From: Actinocorallia herbida
GTDB lineage: Bacteria > Actinomycetota > Actinomycetes > Streptosporangiales > Streptosporangiaceae
Reading direction: 5' to 3'
DNA length: 64,000 bases
Assembly: GCF_003751225.1 (NCBI RefSeq)
Contig: NZ_RJKE01000001.1
Location: 7,564,001 to 7,628,000 of the forward strand
Below, piece after piece: positions 3,760 to 59,706 of this stretch. The stretch's first letter is position 1. Every line of letters starts with the position of its first letter. Made by a program: the position numbers and the translations under genes. Under the pieces are notes generated by a model. It was not told the origin of the DNA and did no database searches. It was given only the letters and a program-made list of their open reading frames with translations.

Positions 3760-4851
3760 TCAGGGCTCGACGGACGGGGGCGCCTCCTGCGCCAGGACGT
3801 CGTCCGGCCCGCCCTCCCGCTCCCTGCGCTCGCGCTCCTGCTGCCCGGCGAGGTCCCACAGCCGCTCGAAGCGATGCCTGCGCTCCAGGACCGCGCCCGG
3901 GTCACTGTGCAGGTGGGTCTTCAGGAACTCCCCCGGGGCCGACGGGTCGGGGATCACCTCGTAGCGGATCGCGTCGTCGAAGAGGATGAAGTCGATCAGC
4001 GAGCTGCGCAACGGCCGGGGCACCTCGTCGTGTTGGAGCGCCCGGACGTGGATGCCGGCGTTGCGCTGCAGTTGCACGATCGGCAGGAACTCGGGACTGG
4101 TGAACTCGGCGTAGTCGCGCATGATGAACAGCCGCCGGATCCGCACCCCGCGCTGATCGACCGCGTCCTCCTGCGCCTTGAGGTAGCGCTGGCCGAGGCC
4201 GCTGGTCCAGAACCCTCCGTCGAAGGTCGCCCCTACCCCGTCGACGTTGCTGGTGCTCGTCGCGTCGAGCGAGACCGCGCACCTGCGCGTCAGCTCGAGG
4301 ATCCAGTCCTGGTCCTCGCCGTCCACGTAGACGGCCTCCCCCTGGACGAGCTGCTGGATGAACCGCGAAGCCTGGTTGATCTGCTCCTCCGCCATCGCCG
4401 TCACCAGAGGCGGCGCCGGAACTCCCAGAGTGGCGGTGTGGTCCAGCAGCCGGGTGACGACCGCGTCGTCGACGGCCGAGGCCCGGACCGCCCCCAGAAG
4501 CCGGCTCGCTCGGTTGGACTGGGCGAACCTGTCATCGATCACCTCGGTCAGATGCGTGAAGCCGGCGTCGATCACCCGGGAGGCCTCGGCCAGCGACTTC
4601 TCCGCGTTCCCCAGCCTCCTGTCGAATTCAGCGAGCAGTTGGACGAGGAACCCGACGCTCCCGATCACCACGGCGAGGATCAGCGAGCCGACCGTGACCT
4701 TGCCGCCGCCCGCCAGTTCGACGGCCGCCGCCACTCCATAGCTGAAAGCGCCGAGGAGCAGCGCCACGAGCACCCGACGGACCACGCCTCCGTCGGAGGG
4801 CCCTTCCGGCGTGCCCGCAGACCCGTTCGGCGGAACCTGAACTCCGTCCAT
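3760..4851 (-). CDS. two-helix membrane protein with conserved actinobacterial C-terminal domain (copy A)
   Basis: A 363-residue protein of unknown function. Two hydrophobic helices lie near residues 25-47 and 53-72, then a helical stretch of about 100 residues, then a globular domain with DGEDQDWILELTR, a Ser-Thr-rich VDGVGATFDGGFWTSG region, GQRYLKAQEDAV, RGVRIRRLFIM and a C-terminal RLWDLAG. The same order of motifs recurs in the product of 18088-19041, so the two are paralogues. ATG 4851 is chosen because AGGAGG lies 5 bases upstream; it shares a base with the stop of the GNAT gene (TGATG), so the two are translationally coupled. The globular domain should face the cytoplasm. A nucleotide- or lipid-acting effector is possible but unproven. 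Confidence 0.7.
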   Translation of the reverse strand: MDGVQVPPNGSAGTPEGPSDGGVVRRVLVALLLGAFSYGVAAAVELAGGGKVTVGSLILAVVIGSVGFLVQLLAEFDRRLGNAEKSLAEASRVIDAGFTHLTEVIDDRFAQSNRASRLLGAVRASAVDDAVVTRLLDHTATLGVPAPPLVTAMAEEQINQASRFIQQLVQGEAVYVDGEDQDWILELTRRCAVSLDATSTSNVDGVGATFDGGFWTSGLGQRYLKAQEDAVDQRGVRIRRLFIMRDYAEFTSPEFLPIVQLQRNAGIHVRALQHDEVPRPLRSSLIDFILFDDAIRYEVIPDPSAPGEFLKTHLHSDPGAVLERRHRFERLWDLAGQQERERREREGGPDDVLAQEAPPSVEP

Positions 4852-53175: not shown

Positions 53176-53508
53176 ATGTACCGCCAGGGAGACATCCTCA
53201 TCCGCCCGGTCGACGGCGCGGCCGTGCCGCCGTCCGTCCTCGCGCTGCCGCCCGTCGCGCGCGATTCCCGGGGCCGCGTCGTGCTGGCCCTCGGTGAGGC
53301 CACCGGCCACGCGCACGCGCTCACCGGTCCGGGCACGCTGTACCGGACCCCGCAACCGATGAGCCCCGACTACCTCCACCTGTCGGAGGGCGGGCGGCTC
53401 GTCCACGAGGAGCACGGGCCGATCACCCTGCCGGCGGGCTGGTTCCAGGTCGTCCGGCAGCGCGAATACGTGGCCGCGTCCCTCACCGCCCGCGCCGTCG
53501 CCGACTGA
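53176..53508 (+). CDS. small conserved protein upstream of DUF6745 gene
   Basis: A 110-residue protein with the pattern YRQGDILIRPVDG, VVLALGEATGHAHALTGPG, YLHLSEGGRLVHEEHGPITL and VVRQREYV. The conserved His residues in TGHAHA and HEEH look like a cupin-type or metal-binding set. I recognise the pattern as a recurrent small partner of DUF6745 proteins, without a known activity. No ribosome-binding site precedes ATG 53176; TTACGT just upstream may be a -10 element, giving a leaderless mRNA. The DUF6745 gene follows after 50 bases. Confidence 0.65.
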   Translation: MYRQGDILIRPVDGAAVPPSVLALPPVARDSRGRVVLALGEATGHAHALTGPGTLYRTPQPMSPDYLHLSEGGRLVHEEHGPITLPAGWFQVVRQREYVAASLTARAVAD

Positions 53509-53558: not shown

Positions 53559-54662
53559 ATGCCCTTCACCGCGACCCCCGCAGACCGCCCCCGCGCCGAG
53601 GCCGGGGCGGCCGCCGCCTACCGCGCGGCGGGCCTGCCCGAGCCGTCCCACATCCTGTGGGTCCCCTCCCCGTTCACCGGGGCGGTCCTCGCCGCCCTGC
53701 TCGATCCGGAACTGCCGGAGACGCGGGCGGAACTCGCCTCCCTGATCCCGGCGGGCACCTGCACGCTGCGCTCCCCGGGCGTCCCCGAGCGCGCGCTACC
53801 GTCCGCCGAGGCGGCCGAGCTCCTTCCCCGGCTCGGCGCCGGCGCACCCGTCCGCGAGCGGGTGCGCTCCCTGCCCTGGGAGGCCGAACGGGCCGCCGCC
53901 TACGCCGAGCTGGGCCCGGCGGGCTGGGCGGAGACCTGGGCGCGGACGGGCGGGCCCACCTGGGAGCCGGTGAACGGGCTCGTCGCGCGGATCCGGGCCG
54001 CCCTCGGCGAGCTGGGCGGGGAGGAGCACGGCAGCCGGCTGCGCGGCGCGAGCCTGGACGCCGTCCTGGGCCAGCACGACGCGCCCTGGCTCGGCCTGTT
54101 CGCCTCCCTCGGCCGCCTCGCGCCGCTGCACGGCCTCGCCGAGGTCGCCGCGTCGGCGGGCTGGTGGTGGCCGCGGGAGAACCTGGTGATCCTCTCCGAG
54201 CGCCCGTCCCGGCTGTGCCGCGACGAGCCGGGCCGCCTGCACAGCGGCGACGGCCCCGCCCTGGCCTATCCCGACGGCTTCGCCCTGCACGCGTGGCGCG
54301 GCATGCCCTTCCCCGCCGGGTTCGTCGACACGCTCGCCGCGCTCACCCCGGCGAAGATCCGCGCGGAGGACAACACCGAGCTGCGCCGGATCATGCTGGA
54401 GCACTTCGGCTACGACAGGTACCTCGCCGAGTCCGGCGCGGCTCCCGTGCACAAGGACGAGACCGGCACCCTGTGGCGGATCGAGCTCCCCTTCGACGAG
54501 CCCGTCGTCATGGTCGAGGTGCTGAACTCCACCCCGGAGCCGGACGGCTCGGTGCGCACCTACTACCTGCGGGTGCCACCGGAGGTCCGGACGGCCCGCG
54601 AGGGCGTCGCCTGGACCTTCGGCCTGACCGCGCAGGAGTACCACCCGGAGAAGGAGACCTGA
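53559..54662 (+). CDS. DUF6745 family protein
   Basis: A 367-residue protein of unknown function. It has an N-terminal helical half with Trp and Ala-rich segments, a WWWPRENLVILSERP motif, RLHSGDGPALAYPDG and a C-terminal third with EHFGYDRYLAESGAAPVH, LWRIELPFDEPVVMVEV and a final AWTFGL. The conserved Trp, His and Asp residues suggest a ligand-binding or enzymatic role. It forms a unit with the small gene upstream and converges on the radical SAM cluster. Confidence 0.75.
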   Translation: MPFTATPADRPRAEAGAAAAYRAAGLPEPSHILWVPSPFTGAVLAALLDPELPETRAELASLIPAGTCTLRSPGVPERALPSAEAAELLPRLGAGAPVRERVRSLPWEAERAAAYAELGPAGWAETWARTGGPTWEPVNGLVARIRAALGELGGEEHGSRLRGASLDAVLGQHDAPWLGLFASLGRLAPLHGLAEVAASAGWWWPRENLVILSERPSRLCRDEPGRLHSGDGPALAYPDGFALHAWRGMPFPAGFVDTLAALTPAKIRAEDNTELRRIMLEHFGYDRYLAESGAAPVHKDETGTLWRIELPFDEPVVMVEVLNSTPEPDGSVRTYYLRVPPEVRTAREGVAWTFGLTAQEYHPEKET

Positions 54663-54752: not shown

Positions 54753-55592
54753 CTACAGGTGTGCGGGTATGCGCTCCAGAAGGCCGTCGGTGAACACGTC
54801 GTAGAGGCCGAGCGGCTCCAGGTGCAGGTAGCCGATGTGGCAGTCGCACAGCGTGTTGGGGCAGGCCGAGGGCGCCCTGTCCGGGATGAAGGTGCCGTCG
54901 TAGAGGTTGCCGAGCGGCGTCTTCACGAAGTGGCAGCGCCGGACCGTGCCGTCCCCGGCGACGGAGACGACGTCGTGGCCGGTCCGGCAGGGCAGGCCGA
55001 GGCTGCGGTGGGGGTGGCGGCTGTAGGAGAACAGGGGGTCCAGGGCCGTCCAGTCGGCGGCCTCGGCATCGGTGTAGCTCAGGCCCTCGGCGGCGTTGAT
55101 CCACAGATAGGTCTCCCCCGGCAGGTCGGCGCGCATGCGCCGGGCCGCCTCCAGGTGCTCCGGCTGCCCGACGACGCCGACGCTGTGCCGTACGCCCAGG
55201 GCCGTGAGCTCACGGCTCTTGGCGAGGAACCTTTCGTGGGACACCTGTCCGGGGTGGTACGTCGTCCACAGGGCGAGGGCGTCGAGGTCGGCGCGGGCGG
55301 TCCAGGCCGTCCGGCCGCCCAGATTGGTCTGGATCGCCACCCGCCGCACCTGCGGCAGATGGCTCAGCTCGATCATCGTCTCCCGGTACCAGGAGCGGAC
55401 CAGGCCCTCCCCCCACGGCGTGAACAGGACCGCGGTGTCGCCCTCTCGGGCGGCGACCCAGGCGGCGAACCTGGCCAGGGCGGCCCGGTCGGCGCGCAGT
55501 TGCGCACGGCTGTCGCGGCGCTTGGCGAACGGGCAGTAGGGGCAGTCGTAGTCGCAGCTGGCCAGGGGGCCGCGGTAGAGGATCGTCAGCAT
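54753..55592 (-). CDS. STM4011-family radical SAM enzyme
   Basis: A 279-residue radical SAM protein. The [4Fe-4S] motif is CDYDCPYC (CxxxCxxC) near residue 14. Further cysteines near the end (LPCRTGHD, RRCHFVK, ACPNTLCDCHIGY) resemble a SPASM-like auxiliary cluster. The core is short and belongs to the group I know as STM4011. ATG 55592 shares a base with the stop of the STM4012-like gene (TGATG). Radical SAM enzymes with auxiliary clusters commonly modify peptides or proteins, but no substrate is known here. Last gene of the five-gene leftward cluster. Confidence 0.8.
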   Translation of the reverse strand: MLTILYRGPLASCDYDCPYCPFAKRRDSRAQLRADRAALARFAAWVAAREGDTAVLFTPWGEGLVRSWYRETMIELSHLPQVRRVAIQTNLGGRTAWTARADLDALALWTTYHPGQVSHERFLAKSRELTALGVRHSVGVVGQPEHLEAARRMRADLPGETYLWINAAEGLSYTDAEAADWTALDPLFSYSRHPHRSLGLPCRTGHDVVSVAGDGTVRRCHFVKTPLGNLYDGTFIPDRAPSACPNTLCDCHIGYLHLEPLGLYDVFTDGLLERIPAHL

Positions 55593-56890
55593 CAGCGCAG
55601 TTCGTAGGTGTCCATGAGCCGCCGCGTCTCCGGGGAGAAGAGGGCGGGGCCGATCGCGTCGGAGTGGGCGAGTCCCTCGGGGGTCAGCGCGATCCTTCCC
55701 GAGATGCGCTCGAGCCACCCCTTCTCCGCGAAGGGCGTCAGGTCGGCGTCGGCCGCGGGGTCGGTGCCGAACCTGCGGGTGTAGGCGGCGGTGTCCACAC
55801 CCTCGGCCTGGAGCAGGGACTGGAGCAGGTGCCTGCGGCGGCGTTCCGTGCCGTCGAGGCGGAACCCGACCCGGGCGCGGCCGAAGTCCTCGGCGCGGAC
55901 GTACTCGTCGATGATCGCGCGGACCTCGGCGGCGTGCACCGCGTACTCGAAGGAGTAGTGGAGCCGCGAGGTGTAGGAGCGGGCGCCGCAGCCGAGGCCG
56001 ACCATGCCGTCCTCCTGGCAGGAGTATTCGGTGCCGCCGCCCCCGCCCGGCCGCCGGAACATCCGCATGGACACCTGCTCGTACCCGAGGGACAGCAGGT
56101 GGTCGCGTCCCGCGCGGTACAGGCCGAGGCGCTGGTCGTCCCAGTCTCCGGCGAGCCTGCCGAGGCCCGTCAGCGGCCTGACGTACAGCGGGTAGAGGTA
56201 CAGCTCCTCCGGCTTCCACTCCAGCGCGCGGTCGATCGAGGCGATCCAGGTCCGCTCGGTCTGCCCCTCGATGCCGTAGATCAGGTCGATGTTCAGGACG
56301 GGGAAGCCCGCGTCGCGGATCGCGTCGAGGGCCGTCACGACCTCCGCGGCGCGCTGCGGGCGGACCGCGGCGCGCGCCTCGGCCTCCACGAAGCTCTGCA
56401 CGCCGATCGAGACGCGGGTGGTGCCGAAGTCGCGCAGGACGGCGAGCCTGTCGGGGGTCGCCGTGCCGGGCGAGGTCTCGACGCCCAGGGGCACGCCGAT
56501 CCCGTCCCGTGTCCCATCGCGCGCGGCGAGCCTGCGGGTGAGCAGGCAGAGGCGTTCCAGCTCGGCGGCGGTGAGGTAGGTCGGGGTGCCTCCGCCGAAG
56601 GCCGCCTGGGCGAAGGCGGCGTCGCCGAGCGCGTCCAAGGTCGCGTCCGCCTGGCGTTCGAGGGCGGCGAGGTAGGCGGAGGTGAGGTCTTCGGGCGCGC
56701 CCGTGCGGGTGAACAGGTTGCAGAAGCCGCAGCGGATCTCGCAGAACGGGATGTGCAGATAGAGGAACAGCGCGGAGGTGTCCTCGCCCGCCCAGACGTC
56801 GGCGAGGGCCGGGGCCGGGTCGAGGGGACGGTAGGCGGTCTTGTGCGGATAGGCGTACACGTAACCCTGGTAAGGACCTGAGGGCGTCAA
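55592..56890 (-). CDS. STM4012-family radical SAM enzyme (HemN-like)
   Basis: A 432-residue radical SAM protein with the HemN-like layout: LYLHIPFCEIRCGFCNLF carries the CxxxCxxC cluster motif, followed by GGGTPTYLTAAELE, VSIGVQSFVEAEARA and NIDLIYGIEGQTERTW, and a HemN_C-like domain at the end. HemN relatives include coproporphyrinogen dehydrogenases and haem or methyl transferases. GTG/ATG start at 56890 overlaps the hydrolase stop by four bases. Family name from memory of the Salmonella STM4009-4015 region. Confidence 0.82.
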   Translation of the reverse strand: MTPSGPYQGYVYAYPHKTAYRPLDPAPALADVWAGEDTSALFLYLHIPFCEIRCGFCNLFTRTGAPEDLTSAYLAALERQADATLDALGDAAFAQAAFGGGTPTYLTAAELERLCLLTRRLAARDGTRDGIGVPLGVETSPGTATPDRLAVLRDFGTTRVSIGVQSFVEAEARAAVRPQRAAEVVTALDAIRDAGFPVLNIDLIYGIEGQTERTWIASIDRALEWKPEELYLYPLYVRPLTGLGRLAGDWDDQRLGLYRAGRDHLLSLGYEQVSMRMFRRPGGGGGTEYSCQEDGMVGLGCGARSYTSRLHYSFEYAVHAAEVRAIIDEYVRAEDFGRARVGFRLDGTERRRRHLLQSLLQAEGVDTAAYTRRFGTDPAADADLTPFAEKGWLERISGRIALTPEGLAHSDAIGPALFSPETRRLMDTYELR

Positions 56891-57663
56891 GCGATCACGA
56901 ACTCCCCGTACGGCACGGTCCAGACGACCTCGTGCCCAAGTCGATGCCCGACATATCCGTCTTCGCCGTAGGCGGTCCCGTGGTCGGCGCAGACGATGAC
57001 GAAGGACGGCCTGCGCAGCATCGCGAACAGCCGGCCCATCCTCGCGTCCACGTACTCCAGGGCCGCCGCGTGGGTCTCCAGCGAGTCGCCGGAAGCGCCG
57101 GGCAGGTAGAAGTGGTTAGGCTGGTGCAGCGAGGCCACGTTGAGCAGGAGGAACAGCCGCTCGGAGGTGCGCGCCAGCACGTCGGCGACGGTGTCGAGCT
57201 GGTGGTCGAGGCCCTCCCGGCAGGTCACCCCGAACTCGCGCGTCCAGTGCGCCTCGGCGAACATGCCGGGCAGCACCGAGCCGAGCGGCGTCAGCCCGTT
57301 GAAGAACCCGACGCCGCCGACGCACACCGTGCGGTATCCGGCCGCGGCGAGCCCTGCGGGCAGATCCGCCTGCTCGTACGTCCAGGTGCCTTGCGCGGTG
57401 GTCTCGCTGCCCGGGAACGCCCCGGCGAACAGCCGCGGATGCGGTCCCGGGCCGGCGGGGGTCGGCAGGAACCCGCTCAGCATCGCCATGTGCGAGGCGA
57501 ACGTGAAGTTCCCCGGGGCGTGCCGCTCCTGCCAGGCGAACCGCTCGGCCATGCGCGGCGTGCGGCCTTCGGCGGCGAGCCGGACCGCGACGTCGTGGCG
57601 CAGCGTGTCGAGGGTCACCAGCACGATGTCATGGGTGCCGACGACCGCGTTCATGTCGGGCAC
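56887..57663 (-). CDS. STM4013-family hydrolase (alkaline phosphatase superfamily)
   Basis: A 258-residue sulfatase/phosphatase-superfamily protein. DIVLVTLDTLRHDVA supplies the first metal Asp and a Thr/nucleophile region, MAMLSGFLPTP follows, and VIVCADHGTAYGEDGYVGH is the second metal site. It is shorter than classical sulfatases and matches the STM4013/SEN3800 group. Substrate unknown. The start may be ATG 57663 or ATG 57654 (MNAVVGTHD). The stop overlaps the STM4012-like start, so the two are coupled. Confidence 0.78.
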   Translation of the reverse strand: MPDMNAVVGTHDIVLVTLDTLRHDVAVRLAAEGRTPRMAERFAWQERHAPGNFTFASHMAMLSGFLPTPAGPGPHPRLFAGAFPGSETTAQGTWTYEQADLPAGLAAAGYRTVCVGGVGFFNGLTPLGSVLPGMFAEAHWTREFGVTCREGLDHQLDTVADVLARTSERLFLLLNVASLHQPNHFYLPGASGDSLETHAAALEYVDARMGRLFAMLRRPSFVIVCADHGTAYGEDGYVGHRLGHEVVWTVPYGEFVIA

Positions 57664-57716
57664 AGGCGGCCTCCGGGGTTGACGGAATTCCCCGTTCTAC
57701 CAGGCATACCGACATC

Positions 57717-58769
57717 TCACCCATTCACCGGTACCGAGTGGCGGGTCTGGAGATAGGCCGCGACCTGGGCGTCATAGGTGTCCATGCCCTCCGCGGGGGT
57801 GCCCGGCAGGCCGGGCAGGCCCGGGAGCAGATCGCCGAACGCGTTGACCTCGGCCACCGCGAACCTCCGCAGGCCGACCCCGACGAGGAGGTCCACGCCG
57901 ACCATCGTGCTGCGCGGGAAGCAGGAGGCGGCCCGGACGCACACGTCCATCGCCTCCGCCCACGGCAGCGCCGCCCGGACCGCGGCGAGATCACCGCGGC
58001 GGCCGCCGAGGTGAAGGTTGGTCATCGGCGCCCGCGCGGTGCGCGCCACCACGTGGGTCGGCACGCTCGCGACGAGCACCACGCGCAGGTCGAAGACCCG
58101 GCCGCCCAGCGCGGCCTTGGGGAACCAGCGTTCGACGTGCAGCCCGTCCGGCGCGAGGGCGTCGACGAGCGCCGCCACCTCGTGCTCGCCGGTGTAGGCG
58201 CGCACGCCGAGCGCGTTGTACCAGCCCGCCGCGTCGCGCGCCGCCGACGTCTGCGCCCGGATCCTGCCGCCCGCCGCCTGGAGCGCGATCACCCCGGCCG
58301 CCGACGACCCGTGCGCGGGCTTCACGAAGACCCGGTGGAACCCGGACTCGGCCATCCGCTCCCGCAGCTCCGCGTACCCGCCGACCGGCCCGAGCGCGGG
58401 CGGCACCGGCACCCCGGCGGCCGCGAGCCTGGCATGGGTCGCCCGCTTGTCGAACAACACCGCGATCTCGTCGACGTCGCCGGACGACGGATAGGGCCGC
58501 AGGCGTTCCAGGCCGTCGAGGAAGGTGCGGTACCAGCGCGCTCCCCCACCGAGCCTCGACGGGTCGCCGGGGCCGCGCAGCAGCGTGTTGGCCTCGGCGT
58601 CCTCTCCCGGCGAGTCGATCCGCAGCATCCCTTCGACGGCGAGGGGACGTCCCGTGAGGACGTCCCGCCAGGGGACGACAGAGGGCGCCGCGAGCCCTGC
58701 CCGGGCGCAGGCCGCCGCGAAGAGGCCGACGCGGCGGTCGCCCGGGGTGCCGACGACGGTGAGGCGCAC
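57717..58769 (-). CDS. STM4014-family protein, ATP-grasp-like
   Basis: A 350-residue protein with ATP-grasp features: an N-terminal fold (LTVVGTPGDRRVGLFAAACA), VFVKPAHGSSAAGVIAL as the ATP-binding Lys and Gly-Ser loop, FDLRVVLVASVPTHVVART, and VAEVNAFGDLLPG as the metal-binding Glu-x-Asn. ATP-grasp ligases join carboxylates to amines or thiols, and some modify peptides. GTG 58769 is chosen because GGAG lies about 9 bases before it; a longer frame to 58844 has no support. It follows the STM4015-like gene by four bases. Confidence 0.75.
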   Translation of the reverse strand: MRLTVVGTPGDRRVGLFAAACARAGLAAPSVVPWRDVLTGRPLAVEGMLRIDSPGEDAEANTLLRGPGDPSRLGGGARWYRTFLDGLERLRPYPSSGDVDEIAVLFDKRATHARLAAAGVPVPPALGPVGGYAELRERMAESGFHRVFVKPAHGSSAAGVIALQAAGGRIRAQTSAARDAAGWYNALGVRAYTGEHEVAALVDALAPDGLHVERWFPKAALGGRVFDLRVVLVASVPTHVVARTARAPMTNLHLGGRRGDLAAVRAALPWAEAMDVCVRAASCFPRSTMVGVDLLVGVGLRRFAVAEVNAFGDLLPGLPGLPGTPAEGMDTYDAQVAAYLQTRHSVPVNG

Positions 58770-58773
58770 CCGG

Positions 58774-59706
58774 CTACTCCGAGACCTCGACGAAGCGCCA
58801 TTCGTCCTCGGCGTCGTTCTGGTCGGCCACGTCGACCGCGACACCGGGCAGCGCCGCGACGACCCGCGCCATCATCGGGGTGGACATGTAGTGGTGGTGC
58901 AGGTCGAGCCGGGCGAGATGGCCGAGCGGCTGGCCGGACAGCAGAGCCTCGGCGCCCGTGTCGGTGAGCGAGCCCATCGACAGCGACAGCGCCTCGAGCC
59001 GGGCCACGACCGGGGCGCCCGCGACGGCGGCCGCGATCGGGTCCTGGAAGTCGGAGTTCTGGATGCCGAGGGCGCGCAGCGAGGGCAGGCGCTCGCCGCT
59101 GAGGATCCCGGCGAGGTCGGGCACCGTGGTGTCGCCGCCGTAGTCGTCGACGCCGAGCCACAGCTCCAGGGACTCCAGCGCGGGCAGCTCGGAGGCGGCC
59201 ACCGCGCGCACGACCCGGCCGGGCAGGCCGCCCGCCTCGAACCGCAGCGACTTCAGCGCGGGCGCCTTCAGCGGCTCGAGCGCGAGGTCGGACCCACCCC
59301 GGACGACCACCTCCTCAAGTCCCTCGAAGGCGGTGAACAGGGTTGTGATGTCGCCGTGCATGATCCAGGAGATCTCGGACTCCTCCTGGAGGTACTCGCC
59401 GAGGAAGAACGCCTTGAGGTCCGGGAACCGCACGGCCGCGTCGGTGAGCAGGGCGAGCGGCCTGGTGGAGGTCACTTCGTAGGTCGGGCCCCAGTTCCCG
59501 AAGATCAGCGCCCGCACCCGGGCGGTGTCGACGTGCTCGAGGAAGCCGGCGAACAGGGTCTCGAAGGGTTCGAACGCCTCGACATAGTCGTCGATGCGCA
59601 GGCGCCACGCCACGGACGCCGGATCGGGCAGCCCGGTGAACTCGCTCTCCTCGGTGATGTCGAACACCGGGAGACCGGCGAAGGACTCCGTGAATCCGTT
59701 GATCAT
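58774..59706 (-). CDS. STM4015-family leucine-rich-repeat-like protein
   Basis: A 310-residue protein. After an N-terminal domain (residues 1-110: [17 protein letters not shown]), repeats of LRR type follow: [57 protein letters not shown] and [12 protein letters not shown]. The C-terminus is acidic ([15 protein letters not shown]). LRR folds usually bind proteins, so this could be the recognition subunit or target of the cluster. GAGAGG precedes ATG 59706; an in-frame ATG at 59838 adds a basic tail with no support. First gene of the leftward cluster. Confidence 0.78.

Follow-up and report, generated by a model that had tools for sequence, protein, structure and literature searches.

RimK glutamylates the C-terminus of ribosomal protein S6 and thus acts on the C-terminal Glu of a protein; it is not known to have radical SAM (S-adenosylmethionine) partners. 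LysX couples alpha-aminoadipate, through its amino group, to the gamma-carboxyl of Glu54, the C-terminal residue of LysW, whose tail reads EDWGE and is recognised by LysX-type enzymes via a GSWGR motif (PMC10433800). Here, I describe a five-gene cluster of Actinocorallia herbida in which a remotely RimK/LysX-like ligase, STM4014, is encoded next to a leucine-rich repeat (LRR) protein, STM4015, whose C-terminal Glu is near-invariant. The cluster lies in a stretch of 64,000 nucleotides, positions 7,564,001-7,628,000 of NZ_RJKE01000001.1 (the window), within a host genome of 9.80 Mb in a single contig. It shares all five families of the NCBIfam set STM4011-STM4015 (NF038073, NF006067, NF038075, NF038074 and NF038076, respectively), and the gene order is that of Salmonella. 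The model names shown for this set give no pathway; the tail of STM4015, the kinship of the ligase and the DUF6745 partners are added here.

The likeness to LysW/LysX (and ArgW/ArgX) resides in a putative acceptor with an acidic end and a C-terminal Glu, and in a RimK/LysX-type ATP-grasp ligase. The differences are that the proposed acceptor is here an LRR protein of 310 residues versus a zinc-binding carrier of about 54, that its tail is R[YF]xAV[SGA]E versus EDWGE and its ligase is without GSWGR, and that the companion enzymes are radical SAM proteins versus a kinase, a reductase, an aminotransferase and a peptidase. STM4015 was accordingly rejected as a member of the LysW family of amino-group carrier proteins (AmCP): it has the C-terminal Glu, but neither EDWGE nor the zinc-binding Cys residues within about 54 residues that define that family (PMC10433800).

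The five genes, all full-length and on the minus strand, occupy positions 54753-59706 of the window in the order STM4015-STM4014-STM4013-STM4012-STM4011:

58774..59706, minus strand: STM4015-family LRR protein, 310 residues, proposed covalent acceptor (NF038076, 349 bits; E310 invariant)
58777..58797, minus strand: C-terminal island RFVEVSE of STM4015, Glu last, proposed attachment site (last seven residues 2.87 bits per position; tail pattern unique in the genome)
58798..58866, minus strand: residues -30 to -8 of STM4015, the variable and mostly acidic linker that leads to the tail (low conservation; acidic charge)
57717..58769, minus strand: STM4014-family ATP-grasp ligase, RimK/LysX-like, GTG start (NF038074, 391 bits; LysX the top solved structure)
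56887..57663, minus strand: STM4013-family hydrolase of the alkaline phosphatase superfamily, Thr at the nucleophile position (NF038075, 373 bits; phosphodiesterase relative); an alternative start, ATG at 57654, is possible
55592..56890, minus strand: STM4012-family HemN-like radical SAM enzyme with HemN_C (NF006067, 607 bits)
54753..55592, minus strand: STM4011-family radical SAM enzyme with a SPASM-like C-terminal part (NF038073, 382 bits; five invariant Cys)

An earlier note on this DNA had named five leftward, mostly overlapping genes of the STM4011-4015 families. The genes and the families stand, all five proteins exceeding the NCBIfam cut-offs (200 bits for STM4011, 380 for STM4012, 250 for STM4013, 175 for STM4014 and 275 for STM4015). 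Overlaps are confined to STM4013/STM4012 (4 bases) and STM4012/STM4011 (1 base), whereas gaps of 4 and 53 bases separate STM4015 from STM4014 and STM4014 from STM4013. The CxxxCxxC motifs that it had seen are found in both radical SAM proteins, STM4011 and STM4012, and the E-x-N end of its ATP-grasp core in STM4014. As to the leucine-rich repeats, STM4015 is leucine-rich by eye and its relatives give weak LRR matches, but a Pfam scan of the window copy reported no LRR.

The C-terminus of STM4015 is built of a variable, mostly acidic linker followed by a conserved island of seven residues, approximately R-[YF]-x-A-V-[SGA]-E. In a first alignment of 13 proteins, the extreme C-terminus held the one invariant feature; in 39 sequences, E310 is one of 17 invariant columns. 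For a wider sample, an STM4011 profile was run on one genome per species (84,980 species), and the best 80 of 422 confirmed loci were retained (the named loci). Glu is the last residue in 102 of the 104 closed STM4015 open reading frames (ORFs) of the window and the named loci, and the two exceptions (L069 4606-5568; L096 5094-5408) are pieces of frameshifted genes, the remaining pieces of which do end in Glu. A broader locus set gives 134 of 138 closed ORF ends, at least one row being a fragment of another, and representatives under 60% identity, drawn from 97 full-length rows, give 31 of 31. Five closed, Glu-final ORFs (in L044, L054, L096, L101 and L103), for which no start was found, were set aside (99 of 104 carried forward), fragments L069:4774-5568 and L096:5124-5408 were excluded from the representative, island and codon analyses, and the taxon and tail counts cover the STM4015 profile matches listed with a locus. 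Glu-final members occur in Actinomycetota, Deinococcota, Planctomycetota, Verrucomicrobiota, Myxococcota, Cyanobacteriota, Melainabacteria, Pseudomonadota, Bacillota and Bacteroidota, with one record each for Bacillota and Bacteroidota.

The last seven residues carry 2.87 bits of information per position, as against 0.93 for positions -9 to -30; the other four cluster families are without such an island (0.91 to 1.97 bits per position at the end versus 0.98 to 2.39). Between -30 and -9, the linker has a median net acidic charge of 5 per 22 residues (range -1 to 12; 97 sequences), compared with about 2 in the body. Both Glu codons and all three stop codons are used, and 45 of the 97 STM4015 genes end clear of the gene that follows in the cluster; a gene-overlap artefact was for these reasons rejected as the origin of the Glu. 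About one third of the named loci hold two to six copies of the LRR protein, which diverge in the body and share the tail. In 42 comparable copy pairs, from 26 of the 80 named loci, median identity is 57% in the body, 38% in the linker and 71% in the last seven residues, which makes for a modest argument, 71% being near 57%; the invariant final Glu weighs more. An extreme of copy number is found in Actinomadura rifamycini (L085 1-5741), where six tandem STM4015-like genes, each ending in Glu, precede STM4014. A relaxed DNA pattern for the tail, with arginine as CGN only, has a single match in the 9.8 Mb host genome, at STM4015 itself, and hence returned no further tail-bearing protein; a stricter pattern with Ala fixed at -4 has no match there, the window tail having Glu at that position.

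Divergent STM4015 relatives of two Gemmataceae genomes (L190 and L191; 44-62 bits) lie beside STM4014 and also end in Glu; the copy in locus L044 is the same as that in L190. The LRR protein is fused N-terminally to a WGR domain in Bacteroides (L036 7552-8625) and Gemmata (L044 9785-11299). In a Jannaschia genome (L186 2230-2728), which gives a further exception to the terminal Glu, an IS3-type element close to the end of a contig has apparently interrupted STM4015.

Turning to the ligase, a profile of 40 STM4014 sequences retrieved LysX as the first structure in the PDB (1uc9, 6.4e-6), followed by biotin carboxylase (3.9e-5), RimK (5zct, 0.0038; 4iwx, 0.0044) and ArgX (3vpb, 0.013). Singly, the 40 members matched the NCBIfam models of RimK (35), LysX (32), MptN (23) and D-Ala ligase (7), at scores that are far under the model cut-offs where shown. 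An hhalign comparison with one Deinococcales LysX gave 83% probability (8.9e-6) over 187 columns. Residues D227, R229, R243, T250, D293, E307 and N309 are invariant (n=40), N251 nearly so, and all are aligned to LysX; they make up the catalytic set D-x-R, R, T-N, D and E-x-N of RimK/LysX-type ligases. A further Arg, R258, is invariant too. Within the ATP-grasp clan, STM4014 appears closest to the ligases of the RimK/LysX type, the similarity being remote for RimK as for LysX.

The earlier note had asked for family searches and co-occurrence; the linkage is real. The full order 4015(n)-4014-4013-4012-4011 is found in 63 of the 80 named loci, several of the other 17 lying at contig ends. STM4011 is present in 80 of 80 by construction, the loci having been fetched with it; STM4014 occurs in 71 and STM4015 in 70 of the fetched stretches, several of which are cut by contig ends. 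The same order recurs in annotated plasmid-collection records of Streptomyces, Deinococcus, Methylobacterium, Paenibacillus and Salmonella, while in a Bacteroides record 4015, 4014 and 4011 are retained and 4013 and 4012 are mostly gone. STM4014 and STM4015, both above cut-off, co-occur in the same 12 of 60 related genomes and the same 5 of 198 genomes sampled from the phylum, two genomes being known to be common to both samples. Outside its usual place before 4013-4012-4011, STM4015 still adjoins STM4014 in nine genomes. In Bacteroides finegoldii (L036 9626-9992), only remnants of STM4013 and STM4012 are left between an intact STM4014 and a fusion of STM4011 with a haloacid dehalogenase (HAD) domain; in Prescottella defluvii (L096 4745-7629), STM4015 and STM4013 of the same cluster are each split over two frames.

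The top solved relative of STM4013 is a nucleotide pyrophosphatase/phosphodiesterase (NPP); D16, T51, H177, D224, H225 and H237 are invariant (n=29), and T51 is aligned with the NPP Thr, which is the nucleophile of that enzyme. STM4013 thus shares with the NPP/alkaline phosphatase superfamily an invariant Asp/His/Thr set with Thr at the nucleophile position, and differs from it in being compact (about 260 residues), remotely similar and without the sulfatase Cys. A sulfatase of the formylglycine type was considered and dropped, for that position has neither Cys nor Ser and its Thr is invariant in the 29 sequences. STM4012 has CxxxCxxC followed by Asn, and a radical SAM core with HemN_C, by which it resembles HemN, HemW and the HemN-like class C methyltransferases such as NocN (HemN 8.7e-57; NocN 9.8e-38). 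It differs from HemN and HemW in that Asn and in scores far under their cut-offs, so that neither HemW (126 bits versus 205) nor HemN proper (110 versus 325) was retained as its identity. STM4011 has, besides its radical SAM motif, five invariant Cys residues in the C-terminal part (C202, C220, C244, C249 and C251; n=29). No SPASM domain exceeds the Pfam cut-off in the window protein, the relative in L036 reaching 18.3 bits versus 21.5, and the sole, weak PDB match is SkfB (E 0.067). STM4011 is therefore like the SPASM/twitch enzymes that build ribosomally synthesised and post-translationally modified peptides (RiPPs) in its radical SAM core and Cys-rich C-terminal part, and unlike them in a SPASM domain seen only sub-threshold in one relative and in a short precursor that was not found. 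A HAD hydrolase gene overlaps STM4011 in Salmonella, and HAD is fused to STM4011 in Bacteroides; the added phosphatase would fit a phosphorylated intermediate. Among the PADLOC defence models, there was one weak match for STM4012 (20 bits) and none for the six other proteins scanned.

On the strength of the tail and of its neighbouring ligase, I propose that STM4015 is a covalent substrate whose terminal Glu serves as the acceptor for STM4014, with radical SAM remodelling to follow; judged from sequence, the case is about evenly balanced. The body of STM4015 would adopt an LRR fold, and a flexible acidic linker would present the fixed C-terminal tag ending in Glu. STM4014 would activate a carboxylate of that Glu, the gamma one by analogy with LysX, and join to it an amine-bearing small molecule. 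STM4011, with its SPASM-like auxiliary iron-sulfur part, and STM4012, by HemN-type chemistry, might then remodel the conjugate or the tail, while the NPP-like STM4013 would cleave or transfer a phospho group during assembly, a HAD phosphatase being present as well in Salmonella and Bacteroides. The end product would be the modified LRR protein, bearing a protein-tethered group. I lean to a modified protein rather than a released metabolite because about one third of the loci have two to six copies and because, among the matches listed, no peptidase or exporter recurs across taxonomic groups. More tentatively, and with the chances rather against it, one enzyme set (the RimK/LysX-like ligase, two radical SAM enzymes and the phosphodiesterase) may arm several LRR "address" proteins of differing targets with a novel prosthetic or signalling group on their C-terminal Glu. 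The interpretation given in the earlier note is thus borne out in part: a toolkit for peptide or protein modification fits the ligase and the Cys-rich, SPASM-like end of STM4011, and the suggestion that the LRR protein is the modified substrate gains strong, if indirect, support from the near-invariant Glu tail.

Two further genes accompany the cluster in the window:

53559..54662, plus strand: DUF6745 protein, convergent neighbour, frequent partner (PF20530, 341 bits)
53176..53508, plus strand: His-rich protein of about 100 residues, partner of DUF6745 (phrog_27831, 1.1e-9; shared motifs)

Both lie by the cluster in 52 of the 80 named loci, only one of them in 3 and neither in 25 (some on short contigs), so that the word "self-contained", which the earlier note had used of the pathway, misses frequent partners. 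Among the 60 relatives, DUF6745 of the cluster type (>340 bits) was found in 10 of the 12 that have the cluster and in none of the 48 that lack it. The last residue of DUF6745 is Thr in 55 of 61 cases, that of the small protein Asp in 59 of 59; both C-termini continue conserved domains and form no island. Members of the small family share GHxH, H[ED]EH, QREY and the C-terminal Asp, and from the first two motifs the protein looks cupin-like. The regions of Paenibacillus, Salmonella and Bacteroides hold neither gene. Related genomes also hold a second, weaker DUF6745 type (56-129 bits; L154-L167), whose presence does not follow that of the cluster; RRT is the end of 11 of its 13 tails listed. 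The small family is also found in phages: 10 records match a Methylobacterium member, 8 of which are Microcystis phages.

Other partners were sought by comparing 5125 ORFs (90 residues or longer, from 90 loci) all against all, and in the resulting lists the many out-of-frame ORFs of high-GC DNA were discounted. The matches listed reflect local synteny within Streptomyces, Actinomadura and Actinoplanes and unrelated ABC ATPases; the latter, in 15 loci, are mixed, about half being one shared Actinomadura gene among those matches. No peptidase or exporter recurs across taxonomic groups among the matches listed, which comprise the largest groups. A TauE-like exporter beside the cluster of Streptomyces cadmiisoli (L031) was rejected as a partner, being present in 1 of 91 sources, and a large ORF group after STM4011 was rejected as a gene family, for it contains many out-of-frame ORFs. 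The earlier note had also advised looking for a conserved short peptide gene near the cluster. Among 2009 ORFs of 20-79 residues within 2 kb of the cluster in 81 sources, no family is shared between taxonomic groups other than pieces of STM4015 and STM4012; the search was tuned to conservation across groups, and group-specific peptides would escape it.

Several observations weigh against a covalent modification of the STM4015 tail. An invariant C-terminus can also be explained as a docking or stability tag, and a fixed last residue is not unique to STM4015, those of DUF6745 and its small partner being nearly fixed too, albeit without an island. The kinship of STM4014 with LysX and RimK is remote, biotin carboxylase and D-Ala ligase being weakly matched as well, and an ATP-grasp fold by itself does not determine the acceptor. 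GSWGR is not found in STM4014, where the aligned stretch reads GSSAAGV; given this and the different tail of STM4015, the pair would resemble LysX and LysW in logic and not by membership. Linkage has its exceptions: in relative G029, STM4014 lies apart from 4015-4013-4012 (L003, L125), in relative G006 a second STM4015 stands beside 4013-4012 (L136), and in two genomes (those behind L067 and L101) no STM4014 was seen beside STM4015. Lastly, among eight STM4015 loci examined that are separated from 4011-4014, the Glu is retained in six (L131, L178, L192, L195, L197 and L204, the last counted as separate by its distance of 100 kb), and two (L137, L138) are true losses; as six of the eight retain it, departure from the cluster alone does not explain the loss.

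The same Glu tail and RimK/LysX-like ligase would serve equally if STM4015 were an amino-group carrier, loaded on its Glu by STM4014 and relieved of a free small molecule after processing by the radical SAM enzymes and STM4013. LysW is the precedent (PMC10433800), and the acidic linker resembles the acidic LysW end. Yet a carrier hardly needs several diverging LRR copies, and a means of release is not apparent: the matches listed include no cross-group peptidase or exporter, the TauE-like exporter is confined to a single source of 91 and the ABC ATPases are mixed; all in all, this course is unlikely. About equally improbable is a role as recognition subunit, the LRR body binding an outside target that bears the modified residue, with the tail merely docking STM4014 or a radical SAM enzyme. 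LRR folds are often protein-binding, the bodies of tandem copies diverge more than the tail, and STM4015 mostly stays beside STM4014 after rearrangement, as expected of such a subunit. Docking does not, however, obviously require one and the same last residue over some ten bacterial groups, the nearest ligases act on a C-terminal Glu, and the sole common extra genes, DUF6745 and the small one, are both unseen in 25 of the 80 loci (some being short contigs).

That DUF6745 or its small partner is the real substrate and STM4015 a helper would account for the near-fixed Thr and Asp ends and for the presence of cluster-type DUF6745 in 10 of 12 positive and none of 48 negative genomes, but it is very unlikely: neither gene is found in the Paenibacillus, Salmonella and Bacteroides regions or in 25 of the 80 loci, their C-termini are plain continuations of conserved domains, and the small family also occurs in Microcystis phages, whereas the phage matches of STM4011 are two Salmonella records. 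Least credible of all is a conventional RiPP pathway whose short precursor, encoded nearby, escaped annotation. A pair of radical SAM enzymes with an ATP-grasp protein is common equipment of RiPP pathways, and SkfB is the one, weak PDB match of STM4011; the 2009 short ORFs from 81 sources nevertheless yielded no cross-group family besides the STM4015 and STM4012 pieces.

The earlier note had further regarded the pathway as mobile, from its presence in both enterobacteria and actinomycetes, a view which the phylogeny does not support. A midpoint-rooted tree, built from 44 STM4011 proteins, unites the window with all 15 rows labelled as actinobacterial in a single clade (100/100). Salmonella and Bacteroides are far removed from it, on very long branches that leave their position uncertain. 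Cyanobacteriota group with Myxococcota, and Planctomycetota are scattered (4 changes). The former grouping and the patchy distribution make some transfer possible, and the tree points to an old set, patchily retained and to some extent transferred, rather than to a recent exchange between enterobacteria and actinomycetes. A megablast search with the Salmonella cluster found no near match in 5,426 E. coli genomes, and the only two STM4011 matches in a phage collection, both Salmonella records, were taken for host DNA.

In the literature searched, no published function was found for the STM4011-STM4015 set, STM4013 and STM4015 appearing only as table entries; one such entry lists a sigma-54 site at STM4013 in S. 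Typhimurium LT2 (PMC3844500). Queries for DUF6745, for SEN3800, or for ATP-grasp, radical SAM and leucine-rich repeat combined with a fourth term retrieved nothing. What was already known is the family names; what is new is the tail of STM4015 and its match to a LysX/RimK-type ligase, undescribed in the literature searched.

To sum up, Salmonella, Paenibacillus, Actinomycetota and Planctomycetota all keep the gene order of the set, for which no printed function was found in the literature searched. The Glu tail leads to a measurable prediction, namely that the last residues of STM4015 undergo a mass shift for which STM4014 is required. If the proposal is true, the STM4015 protein itself would stand in for the short precursor that is usual in RiPP pathways, and the idea of a carrier on glutamate would be taken beyond the biosynthesis of amino acids, to radical SAM enzymes acting on a large, folded protein.

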